Shown: positions 1 to 14,381 of the stretch, in pieces
Numbering within the stretch: the first letter of the stretch is position 1
Layout of the letters: each line of letters begins with the position of its first letter
Source of the DNA: a virus
DNA: 21,907 nucleotides
Strand: one strand, 5' to 3'
Virus record (IMG/VR): IMGVR_UViG_3300033146_004416
Span: 1 to 21,907 of that record
Translations under genes and position numbers: made by a program
Notes under the pieces: model-generated
Told to the model about the DNA's origin: nothing
The model's input: only the letters and a program-made list of their open reading frames with translations
The model's database searches: none

Positions 1-126
1 TTGAACAAGAAGTTCCTCTGCGTTAGATAAATTAGTATTATCTTCACTATACCGATAAACGTTCTTATCGTTAATTATCGCATCTTTAATTGCTGCTACA
101 GCGTTTACTATTTCTTTCCTACTCAT
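1..126 (-). CDS. Small hypothetical protein, 3' end outside window
   Basis: This leftward reading frame starts with ATG at 126 and runs off the left edge without a stop, so only its first 42 residues are visible (begins MSRKEIVNAVAAIKDA). The start is well supported: AAGAGG lies at 135-140, eight bases upstream, in the same cassette that precedes the next two genes. The visible part is mixed-charge and probably helical, with no motif or membrane segment that I recognise. It is the last visible member of a row of tiny leftward genes each carrying its own promoter, a layout typical of phage early host-takeover or accessory genes. No function can be assigned. Confidence 0.6.
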   Translation of the reverse strand, partial: MSRKEIVNAVAAIKDAIINDKNVYRYSEDNTNLSNAEELLVQ

Positions 127-134
127 CTTTATTA

Positions 135-175
135 CCTCTTGATACTATTATACTATATTACTATAATTCTCTATT
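135..175 (-). promoter_or_regulatory. Promoter/ribosome-site cassette A
   Basis: On the minus strand, TATAAT (147-152) is followed by AGTATC and AAGAGG (135-140). The sequence from about 160 down to the start codon is nearly identical to the cassettes before the genes starting at 404 and 659. Seventeen bases upstream of TATAAT is AATAGA (170-175), a weaker version of the TTTAGA found at the sister promoters; the spacer begins GAATTATA as in two of them. Confidence 0.55.
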
Positions 176-404
176 CAAAAAATGAAAATATATCCTCTGC
201 CATCTCACTATTTTTTTTATATAACCTTTCACCTTTTATCTTATAAACAGCCAAAGATCTCCTGTTAGGATAAGTTGCCTGTATGCAAATATATCTATTG
301 TTTCCATACTTGAAAAACCTTATATCATCATGTCTGTAAAGAGGAGCACTATCTTCTCTTAAAAACCTTTTTTCTGCCTTTGCTTTCAACTCAATATCTG
401 TCAT
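171..404 (-). CDS. Hypothetical small phage protein (77 aa)
   Basis: A 77-residue charged protein beginning MTDIELKAKAEKRF, with a basic, aromatic middle (RHDDIRFFKYGNNRYICIQ) and ending SFFE. A longer GTG start at 413 and an ATG at 410 exist, but the ribosome site AAGAGG (413-418) sits eight bases before the ATG at 404, exactly as in the neighbouring cassettes, so 404 is preferred. The predicted pattern is helix followed by beta strands, compatible with a small globular protein. I recognise no family. It is one of three adjacent small leftward genes with duplicated control regions, which suggests independent early expression of accessory functions. Confidence 0.6.
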   Translation of the reverse strand: MTDIELKAKAEKRFLREDSAPLYRHDDIRFFKYGNNRYICIQATYPNRRSLAVYKIKGERLYKKNSEMAEDIFSFFE

Positions 405-412
405 CTTCATCA

Positions 413-443
413 CCTCTTGATACTATTATACTATATCTCTAAA
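413..443 (-). promoter_or_regulatory. Promoter/ribosome-site cassette B
   Basis: TATAAT (425-430, minus strand) is followed by AAGAGG (413-418), matching the sister cassettes almost base for base. TTTAGA (438-443) is only seven bases from TATAAT here, as if about ten bases of spacer (one helical turn) had been deleted relative to cassette C. The promoter may therefore be weaker or use another upstream contact. Confidence 0.5.
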
Positions 444-659
444 TTATTTCTTTAATATTTCGGAAAAATATTGGTTAAACCAAGTAGAAAAGAACTTGCT
501 TAAAAAAATACTCTTCATCTGATCAAAGTCTTTAAAACCAAAAGTAATAGCAATATCTTCCTGTTCATCAATATCTATCTTGGATATAATATCTTCTGCA
601 CTATTACCCAGATAAGCTAAAATATCACCATGTTCTCTAATAATACTTGCAATTGTCAT
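444..659 (-). CDS. Hypothetical small acidic phage protein (71 aa)
   Basis: A 71-residue protein beginning MTIASIIREHGDILAYLG and ending FSEILKK. It has an acidic middle (DIDEQEDIAITFGF) and an aromatic C-terminal helix (FFSTWFNQYFSEIL). A GTG start three codons earlier is possible, but AAGAGG at 668-673 gives the standard eight-base spacing to the ATG at 659. No motif is recognisable. The gene's 3' end contains part of the promoter region of the next small gene, so the row is extremely compact. It could be an early host-interaction protein, but that is inferred only from its size, promoter and position. Confidence 0.6.
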   Translation of the reverse strand: MTIASIIREHGDILAYLGNSAEDIISKIDIDEQEDIAITFGFKDFDQMKSIFLSKFFSTWFNQYFSEILKK

Positions 660-667
660 CTTTATCA

Positions 668-708
668 CCTCTTGATACTATTATACTATATCTCTATAAT
701 TCTCTAAA
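668..708 (-). promoter_or_regulatory. Promoter/ribosome-site cassette C (best-formed copy)
   Basis: On the minus strand TTTAGA (703-708), a 17-base spacer, TATAAT (680-685) and AAGAGG (668-673) lie in order before the ATG at 659. The -10 region sits in a near-tandem ATAGTAT-A-ATAGTAT, which could also be an operator. The hexamers and spacing fit a sigma70-type promoter with a very short leader. Confidence 0.6.
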
Positions 709-779
709 TTAAATAATAGATATTATTATTAATAACTTCTAATATTCTTTCAAAGGATAATAGAACTTCTTATACTACT

Positions 780-808
780 ATTATAAACTATGGATATAAT
801 TCTCTAAA
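780..808 (-). promoter_or_regulatory. Orphan leftward promoter
   Basis: TTTAGA (803-808), a 17-base spacer beginning GAATTATA, and TATAAT (780-785) repeat the cassette C promoter on the minus strand. Between this promoter and cassette C (about 70-110 bases) there is no ATG or GTG frame and the only TTG frame stops within five codons. It would make a leader of about 110 bases in front of the 71-aa gene or a short non-coding transcript. Confidence 0.45.
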
Positions 809-809
809 T

Positions 810-836
810 AAAAAAACCCTCTTATTTCTAAGAGGG
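810..836 (-). terminator. Rho-independent terminator (leftward)
   Basis: Arms 817-824 and 829-836 form a perfect 8-bp stem (CCCTCTTA / TAAGAGGG) with a 4-base loop. On the minus strand it is followed by seven T (810-816). It lies about 70 bases past the stop of the secreted-protein gene and ends the replication operon before the orphan promoter. Confidence 0.9.
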
Positions 837-872
837 CTAAAAATATAATACAATTAAGATATATATAACTAT

Positions 873-898
873 GCAAAGTTACTATTAGTAACTTTTGC
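873..898. repeat. Inverted repeat (hairpin) between gene end and terminator
   Basis: AAAGTTACT (875-883) and AGTAACTTT (887-895) form a perfect 9-bp stem with a 3-base loop, extendable by GC at each end with one bulge. It lacks a T-run in either direction, so it is not a classic terminator. Its core is GTTACTA-T-TAGTAAC, an inverted pair of the heptamer seen before four virion genes. Confidence 0.6.
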
Positions 899-906
899 TT
901 TCTTAG

Positions 907-1269
907 TTACTCTACTCTATCGAAAATTAATACATCATACTCTTCAAAAGAAGGTACCCAACACATCAATATGTACTTGTCAGTTGCCTCACTATAAGAG
1001 AAAGAGTTATTATAGATATCACCTATAGCAAAACGTCTCTCTCCATCTACCTCTAGTGTTTTCCATCCATACATATCCTGTGTCTTATTATCAACTAGGA
1101 TGATCTTGTCTTCTATTAGATAGATAGTATAAATATAGTCAGCAGGATGAATAGTTCCCAAAGTAAAAGATGTACCATCACTCTGAAACTTGCCGTTATC
1201 AAGTGAGAATACACTCACAACCGAAATAACTAAAAGGGTGAATATTGCTATTGTTCTTTTCATATTCAT
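907..1269 (-). CDS. Secreted protein with N-terminal signal peptide (120 aa)
   Basis: The N-terminus has a basic start (MNMKRT), a hydrophobic stretch (IAIFTLLVISVVSVF) and a likely signal-peptidase site after VFS, so the mature protein of roughly 97 residues should be exported. No cysteine follows the site, so it is not a lipoprotein. The mature part is beta-rich and acidic with aromatics (ADYIYTIYLIEDKIILVD) and has no recognised domain. The start at 1269 has AGGTAG upstream; a second ATG at 1263 is possible. It ends the replication operon just before a strong terminator. Exported phage proteins made outside the virion module are often superinfection-exclusion or cell-surface-modifying proteins, but nothing in the sequence proves that here. 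Confidence 0.7.
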   Translation of the reverse strand: MNMKRTIAIFTLLVISVVSVFSLDNGKFQSDGTSFTLGTIHPADYIYTIYLIEDKIILVDNKTQDMYGWKTLEVDGERRFAIGDIYNNSFSYSEATDKYILMCWVPSFEEYDVLIFDRVE

Positions 1270-1298
1270 ATTATACTACCTATTACCGTTTCTCTAAA
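1270..1298 (-). promoter_or_regulatory. Candidate promoter for the secreted-protein gene
   Basis: TTTAGA (1293-1298), a 17-base spacer and TATAAT (1270-1275) occur on the minus strand, matching the orphan promoter and cassette C in hexamers and spacing. It lies inside the 3' end of the 42-aa gene. TATAAT touches the first ATG, so a transcript from here would start near the second ATG (1263) and be almost leaderless. Confidence 0.4.
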
Positions 1299-1411
1299 TT
1301 ATCCATTACATAATTACTAAGATCTCTGACATCCCACTCTAATTGTTCTATTCTACTATTTAACTCTGAAATAATATCTACTAGTATCTTGATCTTCTTA
1401 TCATCTTCCAT
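1283..1411 (-). CDS. Short coiled-coil-like protein (42 aa)
   Basis: A 42-residue frame beginning MEDDKKIKILVDIISELN and ending MDNLEKR. Hydrophobic residues recur at about three- and four-residue steps (I, L, I, L, I, L, W, V, L), as in an amphipathic helix or short coiled coil. It starts 17 bases after the stop of the replication initiator gene, and AGGAG overlaps that stop (1424-1430 region), so translation is probably coupled. The AGGAG-to-ATG distance of about 12 bases is long, though the intervening bases are purine-rich. No transmembrane segment is present. It may be a small partner of the replication protein or simply a short hypothetical protein. Confidence 0.5.
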   Translation of the reverse strand: MEDDKKIKILVDIISELNSRIEQLEWDVRDLSNYVMDNLEKR

Positions 1412-1427
1412 TTTTCTTCTTCTTCTC

Positions 1428-2726
1428 CTAATTATTTTCGGCGTCTATTAACTTCAACGCCTCACGCAGTTCATCATCAATTTCTTGTTGAGTTACTGGT
1501 TTTGCTTTTTCTAATTCTTTTGCTTTTTCTAATTCTTGTTCTTGCTTTATTTCTAATAAAGTTTTCTCTAATAACTCTTCATGTGTTGTTTCCTCTTGAT
1601 ATAATTTTTCTTTAATTAATAAATACATCTTATCACGAACTTGGATATGCTTATTATTATCACGAGTATAATAATTTTCAGGAACATCCAAATTTAAAAT
1701 ACTACATATTGCATGTTGATATTCATAGTTATCATACATATAATTATTTCCATGAAAATATTCTTTACCTATTTGATCTATTACATCCTTGTATATTAGG
1801 TATATATAATTATCTTCATATATCTTTATTACTTTATTTTTCCATATTTCCTGTTTTTTTTGAAGTTTTATATATTTTTTAATATCTATTTGATCTCTTG
1901 CATAGTTTGATAAATTATTCCAGTGTTTTATTAATAAATATATTTTAGCAGTATGATCTTGATCAAACTTATCTAATTCTTTATATTTTAAAGAACCTTT
2001 CCAATATTGAATATATGAAAGTAATTCTTTTTTATATTTGAATAATTTATATTCTTTTATATCTTTGGTATTTGGTACATAATTCTTTTGAATATGGTAG
2101 TCAAATACTTTTAATAATTTAGTAAATTGCTCAGCTTCTTGTTTATTCAGTTTATTTCCAAAAGTAGTAGTAGTATCTTCTGTACTACTACTTGATCTAA
2201 TACCCTGTTCTAATAGGGTGCCATTTTCGTCATCGTTTTTGCATCGTTTTGGCATCGTTTTTGCACCGTTTTGGCAGGTATGCCGAGTTTTGGCATCATC
2301 TTTATTCGTTAAAATAGTAACAGTATTATCTATATCTGGCTCATAGTTAATATATTTCTGTTTTTTTAGAAAGGGTGATAATTTCATAAACATAATATTG
2401 TGTGTCTTCAAAGTATTCTTTTCTTTTATTACCATGACGTCAATATATGTTAATTTAATTAATTTCTTTATACTTCTTTTTACACTTCTAATAGATGTAT
2501 TAGTCATATTTGATATTGTTTCTTGTGATGCCCAGGATGCAAGTTTTGTTGATGCGAACCTATATAATATTATTAATACTTTTAGATCTGTTTTATTAAG
2601 TCTATCATCAGATGCAACTTTTTCTGGAACTGCCGCATAAGGTAAAGTTGTATTTTCAGTCTCAGAAATTATCTGATAATTATTTTCTTTTAAATAATTA
2701 TTTATTTCTTTATCAATTTTTTTCAT
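1428..2726 (-). CDS. Phage replication initiator / replisome organizer candidate with winged-helix domain
   Basis: The 432-aa protein has a likely winged-helix domain at about residues 40-115: a DDRLNKTDLKVLIILYRFAS helix, SQETISNMTNTSIRSVKRSI as the helix-turn-helix, then LIKLTYIDV. This resembles the N-terminal DNA-binding region of phage replication initiators of the lambda O / DnaD-organizer type. A low-complexity linker (about 130-190, with SSSSTEDTTTT) follows, then a Lys/Tyr-rich domain and a charged C-terminal helix (about 385-432). The DNA encoding residues 151-165 consists of 11-bp tandem repeats, as expected of an initiator gene that contains its own origin. The start overlaps the upstream stop by ATGA (2723-2726). 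The family call comes from sequence pattern and context, not from a database match; a transcription regulator is the alternative. Confidence 0.65.
   Translation of the reverse strand: MKKIDKEINNYLKENNYQIISETENTTLPYAAVPEKVASDDRLNKTDLKVLIILYRFASTKLASWASQETISNMTNTSIRSVKRSIKKLIKLTYIDVMVIKEKNTLKTHNIMFMKLSPFLKKQKYINYEPDIDNTVTILTNKDDAKTRHTCQNGAKTMPKRCKNDDENGTLLEQGIRSSSSTEDTTTTFGNKLNKQEAEQFTKLLKVFDYHIQKNYVPNTKDIKEYKLFKYKKELLSYIQYWKGSLKYKELDKFDQDHTAKIYLLIKHWNNLSNYARDQIDIKKYIKLQKKQEIWKNKVIKIYEDNYIYLIYKDVIDQIGKEYFHGNNYMYDNYEYQHAICSILNLDVPENYYTRDNNKHIQVRDKMYLLIKEKLYQEETTHEELLEKTLLEIKQEQELEKAKELEKAKPVTQQEIDDELREALKLIDAENN
2232..2294. other. Iteron array, candidate origin of replication
   Basis: Four head-to-tail 11-bp units follow one another without gaps: ATCGTTTTTGC (2232-2242), ATCGTTTTGGC (2243-2253), ATCGTTTTTGC (2254-2264) and ACCGTTTTGGC (2265-2275). 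A degenerate fifth, ending GTTTTGGC, lies at 2284-2294. Eleven bases is not a codon multiple, so the encoded linker is not a peptide repeat and the conservation is at DNA level. The period places each unit on the same helix face. Lambda-like phages carry the origin as iterons in the linker region of the initiator gene, and this layout is the same. Confidence 0.65.
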
Positions 2727-3202
2727 ATGCTTCTGACTTTTAATAAATTACTTGCCTTTTTTGCAATTACATCTTTTACCATATCATCAACTAATTCTTT
2801 ATTTCTTTCTTGATCTACTTCTTCTTTGATAGTTTTCCAGGAAATTACTGATCCATCAATAACTCTGCATCTTTTACAAATAGATATTACATCCCCCAGG
2901 TTTTCTTTCCCCTTGGTTTCCCAGCTTTTCATGAATACTTTTCTTGCCTTATTGCCGCATCCTTCGCATATTGGAGTTTCTTTTAATTTTTCTTGAACTA
3001 TATTTTTCCAGTGTCTTGTATTAAGATAGTCCCAATATTTCATATTTTCATAGTCAGTTTCATCTAATAAATTATCAAAGTCATAATTATCTAAATTATC
3101 TATAGACTGTTTTGTTATTTTATCATATATTCCTATATCGAATTCTTCATCTAATAATTCTATTAATAATTCTATTACTTGTAATATCTCTTTTCTTTCC
3201 AT
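2723..3202 (-). CDS. HNH-like zinc-finger protein with altered catalytic residues (159 aa)
   Basis: Residues about 63-113 follow the spacing of an HNH nuclease finger: RHWKNIVQEKL, CEGC (C79, C82), then ENLGDVISICKRC (C109, C112). The four cysteines should bind zinc. Where active HNH enzymes carry His-His (before the Asn) and CxxCH at the end, this protein reads FMKSW and CKRCR, so the usual metal-binding and catalytic histidines are missing. The acidic, helical N-terminus (1-60) has no known motif. AAGGAG precedes the ATG at 3202, and the stop overlaps the initiator start, giving a two-gene coupled unit. A DNA-binding accessory role in replication or regulation fits better than cleavage. Confidence 0.55.
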   Translation of the reverse strand: MERKEILQVIELLIELLDEEFDIGIYDKITKQSIDNLDNYDFDNLLDETDYENMKYWDYLNTRHWKNIVQEKLKETPICEGCGNKARKVFMKSWETKGKENLGDVISICKRCRVIDGSVISWKTIKEEVDQERNKELVDDMVKDVIAKKASNLLKVRSI

Positions 3203-3349
3203 CTTCTTCTCCTTATATGGTATAATATATGCTATCGATGTATAACATTTAATGTTATTATTAAAAATAAATTAGTAATAACATAAAATACAACATTTGG
3301 TTGCATACTTATAGATGTAAGACAATAAAAAAAAAGGGGAGAATAGAAG
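3203..3349. promoter_or_regulatory. Divergent control region between the leftward and rightward arms
   Basis: This 147-bp gap separates the - strand replication operon from the + strand genes and must supply promoters in both directions. A leftward TATTAT-like -10 with AAGGAG lies near 3205-3225. A rightward candidate is TTGGTT (3297-3302), 18 bases, GACAAT (3321-3326); both matches are weak. The region also holds the 3242-3258 palindrome and further AACAT half-sites near 3278-3284 and 3291-3298. Confidence 0.5.
3242..3258. promoter_or_regulatory. Palindromic operator candidate
   Basis: ATAACATT-T-AATGTTAT is a perfect 8-bp inverted repeat around a single central base. It lies about 40 bases upstream of the leftward ATG at 3202, over the probable leftward -35 area. 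ATAACAT recurs at 3278-3284. The adjacent 3350-3562 gene encodes a ribbon-helix-helix-like protein that could bind it. Confidence 0.5.
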
Positions 3350-3562
3350 ATGTCAGAAAAGAGAAAAAGAAAGACTATACCTGAGGGATATGTAGTAACA
3401 AGGCTATTAATTCCAATAGAGTTAAATGAAATGTACAAGCAATTAGTAAAGAAACAAGGTTGGACTAAAGACTTTGCCATGACAAAGATGATAACAGATC
3501 TTATTATAGAATTAGAAAATAAAGATACTGACTATAAACAAGAGTTTCTTGCTAAAGTATAG
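3350..3562 (+). CDS. Ribbon-helix-helix-like DNA-binding protein candidate (70 aa)
   Basis: The first rightward gene encodes a 70-aa protein with a basic N-terminus (SEKRKRKTIPEGY). A likely beta strand (VTRLLIPI) and two helices (ELNEMYKQLVKKQGW and FAMTKMITDLIIELE) follow. Strand-helix-helix in this size class is typical of ribbon-helix-helix repressors, in which two strands pair in the dimer and enter the DNA major groove. AGGGGAGAATAGAAG before the ATG provides the ribosome site. Its position next to the divergent promoter region suggests control of one or both arms. The fold is inferred from pattern only; it could be another small helical phage protein. Confidence 0.5.
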   Translation: MSEKRKRKTIPEGYVVTRLLIPIELNEMYKQLVKKQGWTKDFAMTKMITDLIIELENKDTDYKQEFLAKV

Positions 3563-3595
3563 TTAGATCTTAATATCATACAAGGAGGTATCAAT

Positions 3596-3952
3596 TTGAT
3601 ACCAAAAGAAGAAGAAGGTTACTATTCTGAAGAAGGTTACTATTCTGAAGAAGAGATAGTAAAGAGAAAACAAAAATGGGCAGCGCTATTAGAAGAAGTT
3701 TGGATGTTACTTCCAGATGAAGAATACACTAATAACGGAGAGAATTGTAATGGTTGTAAACATTATTACTATCTGCATTCAGAAGAGTCTCTTATTCCAT
3801 TGTGTAAATTAGGGGATAATATAACTCAGGGTAAACATTGTTCCAAGTTTGAACCAGGACCAAGACCTAGTTTAGAAGATCAGGTCAATTTCATTGATAG
3901 TGAAATAAGAAAACTCATGTTAGATCTAGATGGGATAGCACCAGATGTATAA
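3596..3952 (+). CDS. Four-cysteine metal-binding-like protein (118 aa)
   Basis: Translation most likely begins at TTG 3596, because AAGGAGG (3582-3588) lies seven bases upstream and no ATG is close. The N-terminus carries a duplicated acidic-aromatic unit (EEGYYSEEGYYSEEE). A central domain has C51 and C54 (CNGC), C70 and C82, spaced as in a zinc- or iron-sulfur-binding knuckle, followed by a proline/glycine turn (EPGPRPS) and a C-terminal amphipathic helix. I do not recognise the family. The gene ends overlapping the next start by eight bases, so the two are probably co-translated. Confidence 0.55.
   Translation: MIPKEEEGYYSEEGYYSEEEIVKRKQKWAALLEEVWMLLPDEEYTNNGENCNGCKHYYYLHSEESLIPLCKLGDNITQGKHCSKFEPGPRPSLEDQVNFIDSEIRKLMLDLDGIAPDV
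3611..3646 (+). repeat. Perfect 18-bp tandem duplication
   Basis: Two identical 18-bp units (3611-3628 and 3629-3646) sit in frame at the start of the 4-Cys gene, duplicating the peptide EEGYYS. The identity at every base suggests a recent slippage event. Each unit also contains the heptamer GTTACTA, here probably by coincidence of codons. Confidence 0.8.
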
Positions 3953-4382
3953 TAATAAAGCTAAAGATGCCCAATGGGCAAGGAAAGAAACAGCCAAGTT
4001 TATTATTAATAACCCTCAATATTCTATATCTAGTGGAAGAGGTGATATAATAGATGGAAATACAGAGATATTTATCAGACATATTAAGTCTGACTATCCA
4101 CGTGTATTTCTAGAACGTGAGCCAACACCTATTTTACATCCTAACCAATTACCTTGGATGTTAACTCTAGATATCCACAAGGGTGATAAGGTAATATTCA
4201 AGATGCCAACCTGGTCAGAGAGATATGATCTTTTCAAATTAAGAAACTGGTATCTGAGTTTATTACTCGCTGATGATGGCCAAGAAATATTATCAACTCT
4301 CGGACGGTGGTATCCGGGTAATAGATATAATGGTTCTGGCTGGAATATTAACAAGGAAGACCTAAGTAGGTTCATCTCATAA
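3945..4382 (+). CDS. Hypothetical protein (145 aa)
   Basis: A 145-residue protein starting at the ATG that overlaps the previous stop. No strong ribosome site is visible (GGGATAG about nine bases upstream), so translation is probably coupled. It mixes helix (AKDAQWARKETAKFI) with aromatic, basic segments (SDYPRVFLEREPTP, LPWMLTLDIHKGDKVIF) and ends with WYPGNRYNGSGWN and a short helix. It has no cysteine, signal or membrane stretch. I do not recognise it. It is the last gene before the terminator at 4411, and its neighbours are small regulatory-looking genes. Confidence 0.55.
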   Translation: MYNNKAKDAQWARKETAKFIINNPQYSISSGRGDIIDGNTEIFIRHIKSDYPRVFLEREPTPILHPNQLPWMLTLDIHKGDKVIFKMPTWSERYDLFKLRNWYLSLLLADDGQEILSTLGRWYPGNRYNGSGWNINKEDLSRFIS

Positions 4383-4410
4383 TTCTTTTTCTAAATAAAC
4401 TAATAGTTTC

Positions 4411-4438
4411 CCCTCTTCTACTCCGGAAGAGGGTTTTT
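4411..4438 (+). terminator. Rho-independent terminator (rightward)
   Basis: Arms CCCTCTTC (4411-4418) and GAAGAGGG (4426-4433) form an 8-bp stem with a 7-base loop, followed by TTTTT (4434-4438). The ribosome site of the next gene begins straight after the T-run, with no obvious promoter between. Read-through, antitermination or an overlapping promoter must feed the genes downstream. Confidence 0.85.
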
Positions 4439-4457
4439 AAGGAGAAGGAGGGAGACA

Positions 4458-4613
4458 ATGATAGATAAGGCAAAATATTTATTAGAATATGGTGAAAATG
4501 AAGTACCATTTGACATAGTTAATTACATAGAAAGTGAATTAATAGATCCACCACCAATTTCAGTAATAAGAGATATATTACTCTTATATAGGGATATAAT
4601 TGATCAATATTAG
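4458..4613 (+). CDS. Small hypothetical protein (51 aa)
   Basis: A 51-residue frame beginning MIDKAKYLLEYGENEVPFD and ending LLLYRDIIDQY. AAGGAGGG (about 4445-4452) precedes the ATG at a good distance. The protein is acidic and predicted helical, with a proline turn (IDPPPIS) in the middle, and has no recognised motif. It is the first gene after the 4411 terminator and its end overlaps the next gene by 14 bases, so it probably acts as the leading cistron for the sigma-like gene. Confidence 0.5.
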   Translation: MIDKAKYLLEYGENEVPFDIVNYIESELIDPPPISVIRDILLLYRDIIDQY

Positions 4614-5151
4614 ATATGCAGAGTTTATTAAAGAAAATAATAGTACTACATTTGCTAATTTATATAGTGAGTTACTACCCATATCTATTCGAGTAGCCAG
4701 ATCCCAATTAAAAAAGAAAAGTATCTATTCTTATAATAAAACCAAGATAGATGAATTAGCTCACGATATGAGCACAGAGTTTATACTCGAACAAATTAAA
4801 AACCCAGATAGAAGAGTCCGTAATATACCATCCTGGCTCCACTTTATATTCAAGAAAATAGTATACAAGAGAAGTAATATCAGACATGATAAAGAAGTAG
4901 AGTTTGATACAACCTGGATGAGTAAAACAGTAGATAATATATCTACTCTCCCTATACTTCAAGATAGTGAAACTGACTATATTAATATTATCAAAGAACA
5001 TCCACAATATAGGTGGATATTATATTATCTTTCAAAACCTTATTCATATAGGAGAACATTCACACTATTAATGAATATTGGAGTAACCAAGAAATATATA
5101 AGAGATAATAGTACTATTTTAATTAGGGTAAAAAAGGAGTTACAACATTGA
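4600..5151 (+). CDS. Sigma-factor-like (region 2) regulatory protein candidate (183 aa)
   Basis: Residues about 16-95 read like region 2 of a small sigma factor. A first helix (FANLYSELLPISIRVARSQL) leads to an acidic second helix (IDELAHDMSTEFILEQI), then the aromatic segment VRNIPSWLHFIFKKIVYKRS, comparable with the Trp-containing -10-recognition helix of ECF-type factors. A basic tail follows. Residues 136-180 (YRWILYYLSK...VTKKYIRDN...IRVKKEL) could be a shortened helix-turn-helix. Translation starts at TTG 4600, with AGGG six bases upstream, inside the end of the 51-aa gene; no in-frame ATG lies nearby. If it binds host RNA polymerase it could direct the virion genes. The call is by pattern only; an unrelated helical regulator remains possible. 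Confidence 0.45.
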   Translation: MINIRYAEFIKENNSTTFANLYSELLPISIRVARSQLKKKSIYSYNKTKIDELAHDMSTEFILEQIKNPDRRVRNIPSWLHFIFKKIVYKRSNIRHDKEVEFDTTWMSKTVDNISTLPILQDSETDYINIIKEHPQYRWILYYLSKPYSYRRTFTLLMNIGVTKKYIRDNSTILIRVKKELQH

Positions 5152-5294
5152 AACGTTTAACTATAGTAAATATAGATGATGAAAAGTATGAGATATTAAA
5201 AGAAATATTAAAATTAAGGGAGATGAATGCTTCTGATATATTCCTCCCTTATATTGACTACATAATAGAGTTATTCTTAAAAGGAGAATTATGA
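5148..5294 (+). CDS. Small ribbon-helix-helix-like protein candidate (48 aa)
   Basis: A 48-residue frame beginning with TTG at 5148, with AGGAG nine bases upstream (5135-5139 region). It overlaps the previous stop by TTGA and the next start by ATGA. The sequence KRLTIVNID suggests a beta strand; DEKYEILKEILKLREM and SDIFLPYIDYIIELFL suggest two helices, the compact strand-helix-helix plan of Arc/CopG-like regulators. There is no other domain. Four-base overlaps on both sides indicate strict translational coupling in a regulatory block. It could form a dimeric repressor or antirepressor; this is inferred from shape only. Confidence 0.5.
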   Translation: MKRLTIVNIDDEKYEILKEILKLREMNASDIFLPYIDYIIELFLKGEL

Positions 5295-5602
5295 AAGAGA
5301 AAATATTTAGAAAACTATCTAAAACAATTGGACCCATGGCAGCATCTACACTATTTAATTTAATAGAACAGTTAGGAGAAGATAATACTCCTATAGTAGA
5401 GTATAATGATGAACTGTTCTGGTTCCATCCTAAACAAAGAATTATTATTAAAAACCTAGGTGTCAGTAAACCAGTATATTATAAATTACTCAGTATCCTA
5501 GCTGATAATGGTTATATATCCAAGGTTATAGAAAAGAAAAGAATGATAGTAAAGATCCACTTTGAAAAGATAAATGAGGTACTAGTTGGATCAGAAGAGT
5601 AG
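5291..5602 (+). CDS. Winged-helix DNA-binding protein candidate (103 aa)
   Basis: The 103-aa protein begins with ATG at 5291, preceded by AAGGAG. Its order of elements fits a winged helix: a first helix (GPMAASTLFNLIEQLG), an aromatic strand (DELFWFHPKQR), the helix-turn-helix (IIIKNLGVSKPVYYKLLSILADNGYI) and a two-stranded wing (SKVIEKKRMIVKIHFEKI). This pattern resembles the N-terminal domain of phage replisome organizers and MarR/DnaD-like regulators. There is no C-terminal effector domain, so it probably acts as a transcription regulator or DNA-binding adaptor. It is coupled to the preceding small regulator and overlaps the HNH gene by 17 bases. Confidence 0.55.
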   Translation: MKEKIFRKLSKTIGPMAASTLFNLIEQLGEDNTPIVEYNDELFWFHPKQRIIIKNLGVSKPVYYKLLSILADNGYISKVIEKKRMIVKIHFEKINEVLVGSEE

Positions 5603-5900
5603 AACCAAGTTTAGACAGTCAGGCAAGTGGAAAAAGTTTAGAAAGATAATGTTAAGTAGAGTTAACAATAGATGTGAAATATGTGGTATTTATCATAAAA
5701 AAGGACTTAATGTTCACCATCATAACCCCCATGAATATGATAATTTAAATATTCAAGACTTTTCTGTACTTTGCAAGTCTTGTCATAGAGAAGTAGAAAG
5801 ACTCCTTAGTAGAACTTCTAACCGAGTAGATATAGATAAATATATATCTAACCTTAAAAGAGTATATGAGGAGAGTCTGAAGTATACTCAAAATAAATGA
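5586..5900 (+). CDS. HNH endonuclease
   Basis: The 104-aa protein has the full HNH/zinc signature: CEIC (C30, C33), the HHH triplet (44-46), an Asn in the following loop, and CKSCH (C63, C66, H67). These residues form the beta-beta-alpha-metal nuclease site. The start is TTG 5586, with GAGGT six bases upstream, inside the preceding gene. HNH proteins placed directly before the large terminase are known in many tailed phages (HK97 gp74 type) to help terminase cut concatemeric DNA, so a packaging role is more likely here than homing. It ends 43 bases before the terminase start. Confidence 0.9.
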   Translation: MDQKSRTKFRQSGKWKKFRKIMLSRVNNRCEICGIYHKKGLNVHHHNPHEYDNLNIQDFSVLCKSCHREVERLLSRTSNRVDIDKYISNLKRVYEESLKYTQNK

Positions 5901-5901
5901 G

Positions 5902-5908
5902 GTTACTA
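5902..5908 (+). promoter_or_regulatory. GTTACTA element before terminase gene
   Basis: GTTACTA lies in the 42-base gap between the HNH and terminase genes, 41 bases before the ATG. The same heptamer is found in three other gaps before virion genes (7570, 9705, 11753). A late promoter part or regulator site is inferred. Confidence 0.35.
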
Positions 5909-5942
5909 AACAATTGATAAACAAGAGAAGAAGGAGTATATT

Positions 5943-7556
5943 ATGGCTAAAAAGAAAAGTCCTGGTAGAGTAGCTAATGCTAAAAAGAACCTTCAACAAA
6001 AAGGACAACCATCTAATAGTCCTGGTAGAACTCCTGGTACTGGATACAAACAGTTTACACAGGAATTATTTGCATCCATGTTAGATAGGGATGTAACTTA
6101 TAATAAAAAGAAAGTAAAGTTTTCTGAAGCATTTATACAACAAGTAATGGAGAGTGTTAGAACTGGAGGATGGGCAGCACGCCTATTCTTTGAAAGAATG
6201 TTCTCTGAAAATATATTAGATGATATAGATAATTTATTAGACAAGAGTAGGAGAGAAGATGAAGACTTTCTTTCTTATAGAATACTCAAGATGGCACACG
6301 ACTATCAACAAAGAGTAATATTAACCAAGAAAAAAAAGATCTATAATATGGCAGGAAGACGTGCCGGTAAAACAGAGGCTAATATATTAAAAGTAGTAGA
6401 AAAGTTTATTACCATCAAGGATGCACGTATATTAATACTAGGCCTTACATTCTCTACAACAGTAGATCTATATTTTAATAGTGTAATATCTTATCTAGAT
6501 GATCTAGGATATTCTAACTTTGATGAGAAGAGCAAGAGTGATGGTACTATAGTATTAGGTAAAAAGGAAATACACTTCAAGGGTAATTCTACTGTAGATG
6601 AAAGAGAGAAAGTAAGGGGTAGTAATTGGGATCTGGTAGTAATAGATGAGGCCCAGTCACAAAAGGCTCTTCCTTATTTAATAGACTCTATAGTAGAACC
6701 TACACTACTCGATAAGAATGGACAATTAGTATTAACAGGTACAGGGCCTAGAGTAAGAGGAACATATTGGGAAGAACTATGGACGAGAGAAGATAATAAT
6801 GTACTCAAGTTAAATTGGAATATTTCTGATAACCCATTCATACCTAATTATCAAGAGATATTAGAAGAGATAAAAAAGAACAAGGGTATAGATGAAACTA
6901 ATTCTTTATTTATTAGAGAATATCTAGGACAGATAGCCTATGATGATGACGCCCTAGTATATAGAATAGAAGATGATAATATTATAGATGAAAAGGTAAT
7001 GAAAGAATGGATAGATAGTAAACCTGTAACAGATGTACACTTTTCTGCAGGTTTAGACTATGGTTTTAATGATGCAGATGCATTCGGTATTATAATGTAT
7101 GCAGACAATGATCCAACACTTTGGTTAATATATGAATATAGAAATAATAGAACAGGGATAACAGAATTAGTAGATGAGATAAAGAAAGGAATAGAATATA
7201 TTAATACAGATCCTCTCTATTCAAAATTAGAAGATCGACACTTTAATATTTTTGCTGATACAGGTGGAGCAGGAAAGAAGATAAGTTTTGAATTAGCAAC
7301 ACAACACTCTCTTCCAGTACTCGATGCTTACAAAGCTAACAAGGATCTAGGTGTAGAAATGCTACAAGAAGATGTGAGAAAGAAAACATTCAAGATAAGA
7401 AAAGATGGTATATTTGCAGATGAGGCCCTGAGAACAGTATTTGCACGTAATGAGAAAGATGAATTAACAAGAGTAGTAGATGATAATACATTCCATCCAG
7501 ATCTCCTCGATGCAGTACTTTATGCACTCAGACCTATATATATGTTTAACCAATAG
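5943..7556 (+). CDS. terL: Terminase large subunit (DNA-packaging ATPase/nuclease)
   Basis: This 537-aa enzyme pumps phage DNA into the procapsid and cuts it to length. The ATPase half shows Walker A AGRRAGKT (137-144), Walker B LVVIDEA (231-237) and the coupling motif LTGTG (264-268). The RNase-H-like nuclease half shows the acidic residues of GLDYG (D372), FADTGG (D439) and HPDLLDA (D520, D523). The first 110 residues are basic and Pro/Gly-rich (SPGRTPGTGYKQF), then helical, as in terminases that carry an N-terminal extension; no separate small-subunit gene is obvious upstream. AAGGAG lies seven bases before the ATG. The length and motif order are typical of the family. Confidence 0.95.
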   Translation: MAKKKSPGRVANAKKNLQQKGQPSNSPGRTPGTGYKQFTQELFASMLDRDVTYNKKKVKFSEAFIQQVMESVRTGGWAARLFFERMFSENILDDIDNLLDKSRREDEDFLSYRILKMAHDYQQRVILTKKKKIYNMAGRRAGKTEANILKVVEKFITIKDARILILGLTFSTTVDLYFNSVISYLDDLGYSNFDEKSKSDGTIVLGKKEIHFKGNSTVDEREKVRGSNWDLVVIDEAQSQKALPYLIDSIVEPTLLDKNGQLVLTGTGPRVRGTYWEELWTREDNNVLKLNWNISDNPFIPNYQEILEEIKKNKGIDETNSLFIREYLGQIAYDDDALVYRIEDDNIIDEKVMKEWIDSKPVTDVHFSAGLDYGFNDADAFGIIMYADNDPTLWLIYEYRNNRTGITELVDEIKKGIEYINTDPLYSKLEDRHFNIFADTGGAGKKISFELATQHSLPVLDAYKANKDLGVEMLQEDVRKKTFKIRKDGIFADEALRTVFARNEKDELTRVVDDNTFHPDLLDAVLYALRPIYMFNQ

Positions 7557-12207: not shown

Positions 12208-12486
12208 ATGTATAATATACTCGTACAAAGTGATAATGGTTTAATTAAAGACTATAATAGGGACTATATATTAACTAATAATACCATTGTTGTATTATTA
12301 GATGGTGATCACATCTTAACGTACTCTGATCTTTCTTCTGCTACTTGTAATGTACACCAGATAGAAGATGAGTTAGAGTTATTTTATGGTAATAAATATA
12401 TATATGATAATGGTAATATTACAATAGTAGAAGGATGGGAAGATCCAGAACCTATTGAACCTGGTCCAATACCAGAAGGGTTATAA
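12208..12486 (+). CDS. Hypothetical small virion-region protein (92 aa)
   Basis: A 92-residue acidic protein (begins MYNILVQSDNGLIKDYNRDY) with beta-rich character (NTIVVLLDGDHILTYSD), ending in a Pro/Glu-rich tail (EDPEPIEPGPIPEGL). AGGAG lies seven bases upstream of the ATG. The stop shares its last base with the next gene's ATG (TAATG at 12484-12488), so the two are translationally coupled. No motif is recognised; a small chaperone or partner for the following 631-aa structural protein is possible but unproven. Confidence 0.55.
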   Translation: MYNILVQSDNGLIKDYNRDYILTNNTIVVLLDGDHILTYSDLSSATCNVHQIEDELELFYGNKYIYDNGNITIVEGWEDPEPIEPGPIPEGL

Positions 12487-14381
12487 TGGCTGGAGAGATA
12501 ACATTTGGAACTCCTACTGACTTTACTACCGTATTATCATCAGAAAACCTAGTAGTAGGTATAGATGATGACAAGTTCTCAGTATTATTTGATGTTAATA
12601 GTACATCAGATGCTGCTAATGTCATCAGTGCTACTGTCTCTGGTTTAGTCCCAACTTTTGGTGTTCCTATTGCAGGATCTAGTAATACTAATAACTATTG
12701 GACTGCATCAATGATATCCCCATCACCTAATATTACTATAGGAGTATTAGGAGATAATGACCCTAATGTTGGTGTATATTCTACTACTGGGAATACTATA
12801 AAGTTTATTAGCCCTGGAAAGTTTAGTTCTAATGATAGACTTCCAGGGTTTGTTAATGTTGCTAATACCCCAACTGTAGGTACAGCATTGTTAAATGCAT
12901 CAGATGCAATATTTGTTGCATACCCTTGGACATTAGATGGATCTAATAATATAACAGTTGGAACTGTGAAATATATTAATACATCAATACCAAGGTTTGG
13001 TAGTAATGGACATTCAGGTGTTGCTCTAGACTCAGAAAGAACACTAGCAGTTTACACTGATATTAAAAACTCTAATTATGCTACAGCAATAATTATAACT
13101 AATTCATCTGGGGTTATTTCTTTTGGAACTCCTGTAGTATTTAAGAGTGAAGAGTTATTACAATATAATAATACCCATCATCAAACTTTAGCAGTATCAA
13201 AAGTAGAAGATAATAAAGTAGTAGTGTCTTATATCACTGATATTTATAATTCTGGTACTCATGAATATAGAGCTGCTATGATGCCATTAATAATTACTGG
13301 TACATCTATAACAGTAGGGACAGAAAAAGAAATTAATACTAGTTTATATAATAATTTTATTGACTCTGTTTCTACTAACGATGATGGTTCTTTCCTAGTA
13401 TCTTATCAAGTAAGTGGGCAATATATAAAAATATTTTTAGCACACCTAGATCCTACAACCAACACTATTACAAAAGAATTAGATCAGCAATTACCAGCAT
13501 ATTATTCAATTTCGGGTAGTCATGTTGTTTCATCAATGGCTAAAATACATAGTACAGAAGAAAAATATGTATTCGCTGCTAAAGACTCAGATAGTAATAA
13601 AGGTTCTGTTATAGTATTTGAGTTGAGTAGTACTACTCCAGTTAATACTTTATCATCAGAAGATACACTATTATATTCACAAATTGGTGGAAATGAGACT
13701 ATAAAATATGGAGGAGCTACTAGTAATACATTATTATTTGAAGATATTGGTAAATATTTAATAATGAATACTATCCCATCAGAAGATACTCTATTATATT
13801 CACAAAATGTGATGGGTCCTATAATAATAATTCCACCATCTGAAGATAATTTAATATTTTTTAATACTCCTGGGGAATATATTAATATTATCGATCCGAC
13901 TAGTAATACATTATTATTTAAAGATACTGGTAATAGAATTATTACAACCATATCTTCAGAAGATACCCTATTATATTCACAAAATGTTGATGGACAAAAT
14001 ATTATAATAGAACCATCTGAAAATAATTTAATATTTTTTAATTATCCAGGTCAACCAACCATTGTTAAATATATTTATCCTACTAGTGATCTATTAATAT
14101 TTAGTCAGACAGTTAATTTTCCTGTATATATAGAGTCTACTAGTGATCTATTATTCTTAAAGTCTTGGGCTCCACCAACCTATCAATATGTAACACAAGA
14201 AGATAGATATAATAATAATAATTTAATATCAATAATTGGTGAGGAATATGAGATAAAAATAAAGAATGTTAATATATTACCACAACAGAATAATATTAAC
14301 TATCTTATATTTAAAGGATGGGGTGGTAATATCACTATCCCTACTATAACAGAGGAGGAAGGCTATAATGAAAGCCAGTGA
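12486..14381 (+). CDS. Large repetitive structural protein, beta-propeller-like plus 20-aa repeats (631 aa)
   Basis: Residues 1-385 contain beta-rich units of about 55-60 aa with recurring elements such as FVAYPW, AVYTDIKNSNYATAIIITN, SFGTPVVF and FLVSYQVS, as in beta-propeller modules of phage structural proteins. Residues about 385-561 hold nine units of about 20 aa built on [PST]S-[EDN]-x-L-[LI]-[FY]. A closing domain (EEYEIKIKNVNILPQQ) follows. There is no signal peptide. The gene sits between head and adaptor genes, so it is probably a head fibre, decoration or host-binding protein. It overlaps the adaptor start by 14 bases, with the adaptor's AGGAGG inside its last codons. Confidence 0.65.
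   Translation: MAGEITFGTPTDFTTVLSSENLVVGIDDDKFSVLFDVNSTSDAANVISATVSGLVPTFGVPIAGSSNTNNYWTASMISPSPNITIGVLGDNDPNVGVYSTTGNTIKFISPGKFSSNDRLPGFVNVANTPTVGTALLNASDAIFVAYPWTLDGSNNITVGTVKYINTSIPRFGSNGHSGVALDSERTLAVYTDIKNSNYATAIIITNSSGVISFGTPVVFKSEELLQYNNTHHQTLAVSKVEDNKVVVSYITDIYNSGTHEYRAAMMPLIITGTSITVGTEKEINTSLYNNFIDSVSTNDDGSFLVSYQVSGQYIKIFLAHLDPTTNTITKELDQQLPAYYSISGSHVVSSMAKIHSTEEKYVFAAKDSDSNKGSVIVFELSSTTPVNTLSSEDTLLYSQIGGNETIKYGGATSNTLLFEDIGKYLIMNTIPSEDTLLYSQNVMGPIIIIPPSEDNLIFFNTPGEYINIIDPTSNTLLFKDTGNRIITTISSEDTLLYSQNVDGQNIIIEPSENNLIFFNYPGQPTIVKYIYPTSDLLIFSQTVNFPVYIESTSDLLFLKSWAPPTYQYVTQEDRYNNNNLISIIGEEYEIKIKNVNILPQQNNINYLIFKGWGGNITIPTITEEEGYNESQ
13640..14160 (+). repeat. 20-aa repeats arranged as a three-unit superrepeat (period 180/177 bp)
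   Basis: Nine copies of an S-[EDN]-x-L-[LI]-[FY] unit occur. Six of them form two successive A-B-C sets: TSNTLLF, SEDTLLYSQNV, SE[DN]NLIFFN. ACTAGTAATACA recurs exactly 180 bp apart (13719 and 13899); the B and C units recur 177 bp apart (13779/13956 and 13838/14015). Confidence 0.75.

Follow-up and report, generated by a model that had tools for sequence, protein, structure and literature searches.

The 21,907 nucleotides of DNA from an uncultivated phage that we analyzed (the window, from IMG/VR record IMGVR_UViG_3300033146_004416) contain a gapless array of four 11-bp units within a gene for a putative replication initiator. Judging from the layout of the sequence and from comparison with other phages, these units are probably iterons bound by the initiator that their own gene encodes, and the region from about 2162 to 2296 is probably the core of a lambda-type nested origin.

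In outline, the N-terminal winged helix of the initiator would bind the four 11-bp units. As the units repeat every 11 bp, or roughly once per helical turn, the bound subunits would all sit on the same side of the DNA helix. The nucleoprotein complex would bend the DNA and open a nearby AT-rich stretch, the disordered linker of the protein would let the helical C-terminal region recruit a helicase or loader, and replication would begin at the array. The cost of the repeats would be borne by the linker, which is expected to tolerate almost any peptide. We infer these events (binding, unwinding, helicase recruitment, and the start of replication at the array) by analogy with known origins.

An 11-bp array within the putative initiator gene

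The gene lies on the minus strand at 1428-2726. According to its open reading frame, its profile matches, and a structural model, it encodes a winged-helix replication initiator of 432 amino acids, with an N-terminal winged helix, a disordered linker, and a helical C-terminal region. Amino acids 42-95 match the HTH_36 profile from Pfam (E = 2.3e-9); this putative iteron-binding domain is encoded by positions 2442-2603 of the minus strand. Among the PHROG profiles, the protein matches phrog_270 (replication initiation protein, 8.4e-10), the O-like phrog_391 (2.7e-7), and two other replication-initiation families, phrog_8102 and the DnaD-like phrog_186 (1.1e-4). A full-length AlphaFold model, which had a shallow alignment and low confidence overall, includes the winged helix, a segment from about amino acid 108 to 187 that lacks secondary structure and has the lowest confidence in the chain, and C-terminal helices from amino acid 188. 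The iterons correspond to codons 151-165, in the middle of this predicted structureless stretch, past the DNA-binding domain and ahead of the C-terminal region. An earlier, sequence-only reading had placed the array in the linker-coding part of a winged-helix replication gene, and both the HTH_36 and PHROG profiles and the predicted disorder between the domains agree with that placement.

A second, small winged-helix protein of 103 amino acids, with weak similarity to HTH_36 and phrog_270, is encoded at 5291-5602, upstream of the terminase gene. Small open reading frames are found at the matching place in several relatives (L005, L009, L026-L029, and L032). This protein may be a regulator or the small subunit of the terminase.

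The four units fill 2232-2275 head to tail. In plus-strand letters, they are ATCGTTTTTGC (2232-2242), ATCGTTTTGGC (2243-2253), ATCGTTTTTGC (2254-2264), and ACCGTTTTGGC (2265-2275). As originally described, the first three match ATCGTTTTKGC exactly and the fourth differs by one change; since the host gene is on the minus strand, the unit on the gene's strand is GCMAAAACGAT. Tandem Repeats Finder (TRF) reported periods of 11 bp and 22 bp at 2231-2276, with 95% matches for the 22-bp period. At a lag of 11, the self-match of the array is 31/35, as compared to 24 for the best of 60 dinucleotide shuffles across the whole window. In 5,000 synonymous-codon shuffles, the highest value at the array's own place was 29 and none reached 31, and this null is conservative because the repeat itself shaped the encoded peptide. 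Each of the three reading frames through the units is open. The array is a repeat of DNA, not of protein: as had been argued, repetition of the protein does not explain units with a non-triplet period whose self-match is never reached by synonymous shuffling. The iterons are also richer in GC than their surroundings, as had been reported (43% for the array versus 25% for the gene). No further copies of the 11-mer with 0 or 1 mismatch were found elsewhere in the window. A degenerate fifth unit had been proposed as well. A sequence with 8/11 matches does exist at 2284-2294, but it does not continue the array without a gap: it is separated from the array by 8 bp, out of register, and within a dyad.

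Sequences around the array

This dyad, ATGCCGAGTTTTGGCAT at 2280-2296, and another on the opposite side of the array, TACCCTGTTCTAATAGGGTG at 2201-2220, were both identified by a stem scan, and together they bracket the array; a terminator-type stem scan is expected to find 0.5 such sites per 3.6 kb. An inverted-repeat scan identified a palindrome at 2162-2193, with perfect 11-bp arms and a 10-nt loop, which is 38 bp from the array. It is the sole inverted repeat in the 21.9-kb window with arms of at least 11 and a loop of 3-20, and just 3 of 1,000 synonymous shuffles placed one of this size within 150 bp of the array. The array, the dyads, and the palindrome, which together span 2162-2296, appear to form one functional unit.

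No distinct AT-rich unwinding tract is visible beside the array, as the AT content of the sequences directly next to it is typical of this AT-rich genome. Within 1800-2700, computed stability is lowest across the 60 bp at 2003-2062, which rank among the bottom 0.1% of the window; this is a possible unwinding region but a distant one, about 170 bp from the array. The evidence falls short of the complete initiator-plus-origin module that had been suggested, both for want of a distinct adjacent AT-rich tract and because no helicase loader was recognizable in the set of genes that we searched, the record itself being incomplete. Cumulative GC skew, which had been put forward as a way to locate the origin, did not do so: its minimum falls at about 3.2 kb, at the point where the direction of transcription changes, so it is uninformative. 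There are no DnaA boxes in the window, and we found no tRNAs and, at positions 1-6000, no Rfam RNAs.

The window contains several other repeats. First, an inverted repeat at 3247-3289 (18-nt arms, 89% complementary, 7 nt apart) lies in a divergent intergenic region, just before a basic 70-aa open reading frame at 3350-3562 that weakly matches a repressor PHROG. This repeat is a candidate for the operator of an early switch. Second, a 43-bp unit is present at 121-163, 399-441, and 654-696 (86-98% identical, spaced 278 and 255 bp apart). Read on the minus strand, every copy resembles the -10 region of a promoter plus a ribosome-binding site, and two of the copies precede small minus-strand open reading frames (171-413 and 444-668), so the unit is possibly a repeated early promoter. 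Third, about 1.8 copies of a 177-bp tandem repeat (81% matches) at 13719-14042 encode SEDTLLYSQNV-like motifs within a 631-aa open reading frame (12486-14381), which probably encodes a structural protein.

Relatives of the phage and of its initiator

We searched for relatives of the initiator with tblastn and pattern scans of INPHARED phages, PLSDB plasmids, IMG/VR, and GTDB genomes, and we found none. Similarly, tblastn and pattern scans of IMG/VR found no relatives of its upstream neighbor. The terminase does have relatives in IMG/VR, which are up to 64% identical. The earlier statement that no close relative is evident is thus true of the initiator, while the phage itself does have relatives. 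A search of GTDB genomes with the terminase, aimed at the host, found nothing.

The terminase relatives carry differing replication modules. The nearest one, L005, has a 470-aa primase/helicase-like open reading frame (as read from its sequence and not from a profile match) and no strong HTH_36 or phrog_270 initiator. The initiators of other relatives belong to various classes: phrog_270/HTH_36 in L032, Lin1244_N in L010, DnaD-like in L006, and Phage_rep_org_N in L050. A small protein in which Gly-rich repeats (24- and 18-bp units) form a run is common to two related phages (L051:14150-14872 and L056:4938-5000).

We also considered whether the unit might be part of a widespread phage peptide repeat, AKTVPKRCQNG. 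Three-unit DNA patterns matched nothing in IMG/VR, and a synthetic peptide of this sequence matched mycobacterial RepA genes only, weakly and in antisense, so this candidate was rejected. A two-unit DNA pattern matched one other sequence, which is present twice, in L058 and L059. At L058:995-1047 (L059 is identical), there are about four 11-bp units (GCAGAACCGTG, GAAGAAACGTG, CCAAAACGGTG, and CCAAAACGGTG) that have a core in common with the window's unit. This array is outside of any open reading frame of at least 90 amino acids, in an unrelated phage contig with no recognized initiator nearby, and we consider it a suggestive parallel only.

Repeats after the DNA-binding domain in other initiators

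Because no relative of the initiator was available for comparing the 11-mer, we examined the position of repeats in other initiators instead. For each gene, we identified the best tandem self-match at lags of 7-26, leaving out multiples of three, and we compared it to shuffles of synonymous codons (500, 1,000, or 300 shuffles, depending on the set of genes). The window's initiator has a self-match of 31/35 at lag 11, from codon 151, which was reached by 0/500 shuffles. Among the initiators from terminase-related contigs, L032 has 34/35 (lag 23, codon 122, 0/500 shuffles), L010 has 27/35 (lag 11, codon 114, 2/500), L006 has 23/35 (lag 10, codon 130, 3/500), and L050 has 24/35 (lag 7, codon 145, 0/500). 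The initiator of L051, which is Lin1244_N-like by resemblance, has no significant repeat (19/35, p = 0.6). Overall, 5 of the 6 recognized initiators of this clade have a non-triplet repeat (p ≤ 0.006) located past the DNA-binding domain; this is not an unbiased survey, since it was a repeat scan that first drew attention to L006, L010, and L050. Each of the five has its own unit, with periods of 11, 23, 11, 10, and 7 bp (window, L032, L010, L006, and L050), and they span the HTH_36, Lin1244_N, DnaD-like, and Phage_rep_org_N types.

Beyond this clade, the RepA of a Mycobacterium prophage has a self-match of 24/35 (lag 22, codon 151, 6/500 shuffles), and the best repeat in the initiator of a Polaribacter phage was reached by 7/500 shuffles. 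Two results were borderline, with 15/500 shuffles for the initiator of an Enterococcus phage and 17/500 for that of a gut phage; the best repeat of the former starts at codon 76, where the winged helix ends. As a positive control, we used lambda O, whose best repeat has a lag of 20 at codon 113 (5/500 shuffles, p = 0.01); the lambda record (NC_001416) annotates four iterons at the place that the test recovered. As a negative control, we used other genes from the same contigs. This list had 105 genes, one of which was the L032 initiator with another start and was removed; of the other 104, 1 had p ≤ 0.01 and 3 had p ≤ 0.035. The view that this phage has a lambda-type location for the origin, within the initiator gene, thus gained support, as non-triplet repeats are found there in lambda O and in 5 of 6 clade initiators.

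The main rival to an origin is neutral tandem duplication, in which slippage in a permissive, disordered linker (for instance, by two units or 22 bp at a time) produced an array with no function in the DNA. Linkers do tolerate change, the alternation of C and A between units fits a copied 22-bp pair (as does the 95% match at that period), and the same gene contains an ordinary coding repeat of 18 bp at 1500-1537, as found by TRF. However, repeats like the array recur in several families of initiators, as compared to just one of the 104 other genes at the p ≤ 0.01 threshold; the palindrome and the dyads cluster with the array; and the GC content of the array is well above that of the gene. We therefore consider neutral duplication unlikely.

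It is less likely still that the repeats are a regulatory operator, bound by the initiator or by another phage protein so as to control transcription (by autoregulation or as a road-block) instead of replication. Winged-helix proteins are often regulators, and the fold matches for a model of the N-terminal region are to generic winged helices, including MarR-type regulators as well as TubR and the N-terminal domain of DnaD. But the array is in the middle of the gene, about 450 bp into the coding region, with no copy (at 0-1 mismatch) in the upstream or divergent promoter region, which makes a role in regulation or in partition less likely; furthermore, replication-initiator profiles outscore regulator profiles for the 432-aa protein. 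A TubR/tubC-like partition centromere that is bound by the winged helix and segregates an extrachromosomal prophage is very improbable: TubR-type proteins bind tandem repeats, and the winged helix is weakly TubR-like in sequence (E = 0.011) as well as in fold, but the protein is a multidomain initiator and not a small adaptor, and no partition NTPase was recognized among the proteins searched, which were part of the open reading frames of an incomplete record.

Across the clade, the packaging genes remain related, but the initiators turn over from one family to another, and each has its own repeats in the same position. One tentative explanation for this pattern, which we think has somewhat less than an even chance of being correct, is that the origin travels with the initiator as a cassette: initiator families would be swapped among terminase-related phages, each with its own iterons in the linker codons, and the window's gapless 11-bp form, bracketed by dyads, would be a distinct and compact architecture. 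Because related packaging genes accompany different initiators that have their own repeats, the exchange of initiator and origin as one self-contained cassette can be tested. The pattern also suggests a way to find origins in uncultivated phages from sequence alone, by looking for non-triplet direct repeats just past the DNA-binding domain of the initiator; this rule recovers the known origin of lambda.

Comparison with known origins

Origins inside phage initiator genes are long established for lambda and well characterized for SPP1, in both cases by experiment. The lambda origin is nested in the middle of the O gene, after the DNA-binding domain (PMC7466680, PMC4488673), and the amino-terminal half of O binds the iterons, distorts the DNA, and, with P, recruits the helicase (PMC4488673, PMC7466680). 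Like the window, lambda has four direct repeats in tandem whose core is an A-tract, at mid-gene and after the DNA-binding domain. However, the lambda iterons are imperfect inverted repeats of about 19 bp with spacers, whereas the window's units are 11 bp and gapless, and the lambda repeats are followed by a distinct AT-rich tract, unlike the window's array. CAAAACGA is common to the lambda iterons and the C-bearing units of the window. This sharing is just a hint, because an 8-mer of the lambda iterons is found in 4% of 44-bp segments of the window, and 1.1% of window segments align to the lambda iterons with a score as high as that of the window's units.

Another parallel to lambda is found in L032, whose terminase is 53% identical to the window's. 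At L032:3204-3285, within the gene for an HTH_36 initiator, there are 23-bp iterons of the form ATCCC-n9-GGGA with the spacer GGGATTGC, followed by an AT-rich stretch. The iterons (ATCCCCGCCAAACAGGGATTGCA) resemble those of lambda in their arms, spacing, and spacer, and the local alignment of this region to the lambda iterons scores 26, as compared to a maximum of 24 among 1,224 control segments. By its sequence, this is a lambda-type origin in an uncultivated phage. The initiators of L032 and the window are both of the HTH_36/phrog_270 type and are only distantly similar; in each, a tandem array with a non-triplet period follows the winged helix (directly, at codon 122, in L032), but the 23-bp unit of L032 is GC-rich and lambda-like, unlike the window's.

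In SPP1, gp38 binds direct repeats within its own gene, at oriL, as has been established experimentally (PMC6316719). The window similarly has direct repeats inside the initiator's own gene, which its product would bind. SPP1 differs in that another origin exists elsewhere and in that its repeats adjoin an AT-rich unwinding element; the comparison draws on the published description of this origin. RepA-like initiators also occur in extrachromosomal mycobacterial prophages (PMC7157519). These genes (as in L023) have 11-, 22-, or 33-bp repeats in the linker part, as in the window, but they belong to an unrelated family (phrog_3171), and their units are GC-rich and degenerate.

In the Lin1244_N initiator of L010, too, the part of the gene that encodes the linker contains four 11-bp units without gaps. 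The units of L010 and the window have the heptamers GATGCAA and ATGCAAA in common; L010 differs in its initiator family (PF14297), its GC-rich genome, and its unit (GCGGATGCAAA). The gapless 11-bp unit of the window is unusually compact, and this architecture, with about one helical turn per unit, is possibly shared with the Lin1244_N initiators.
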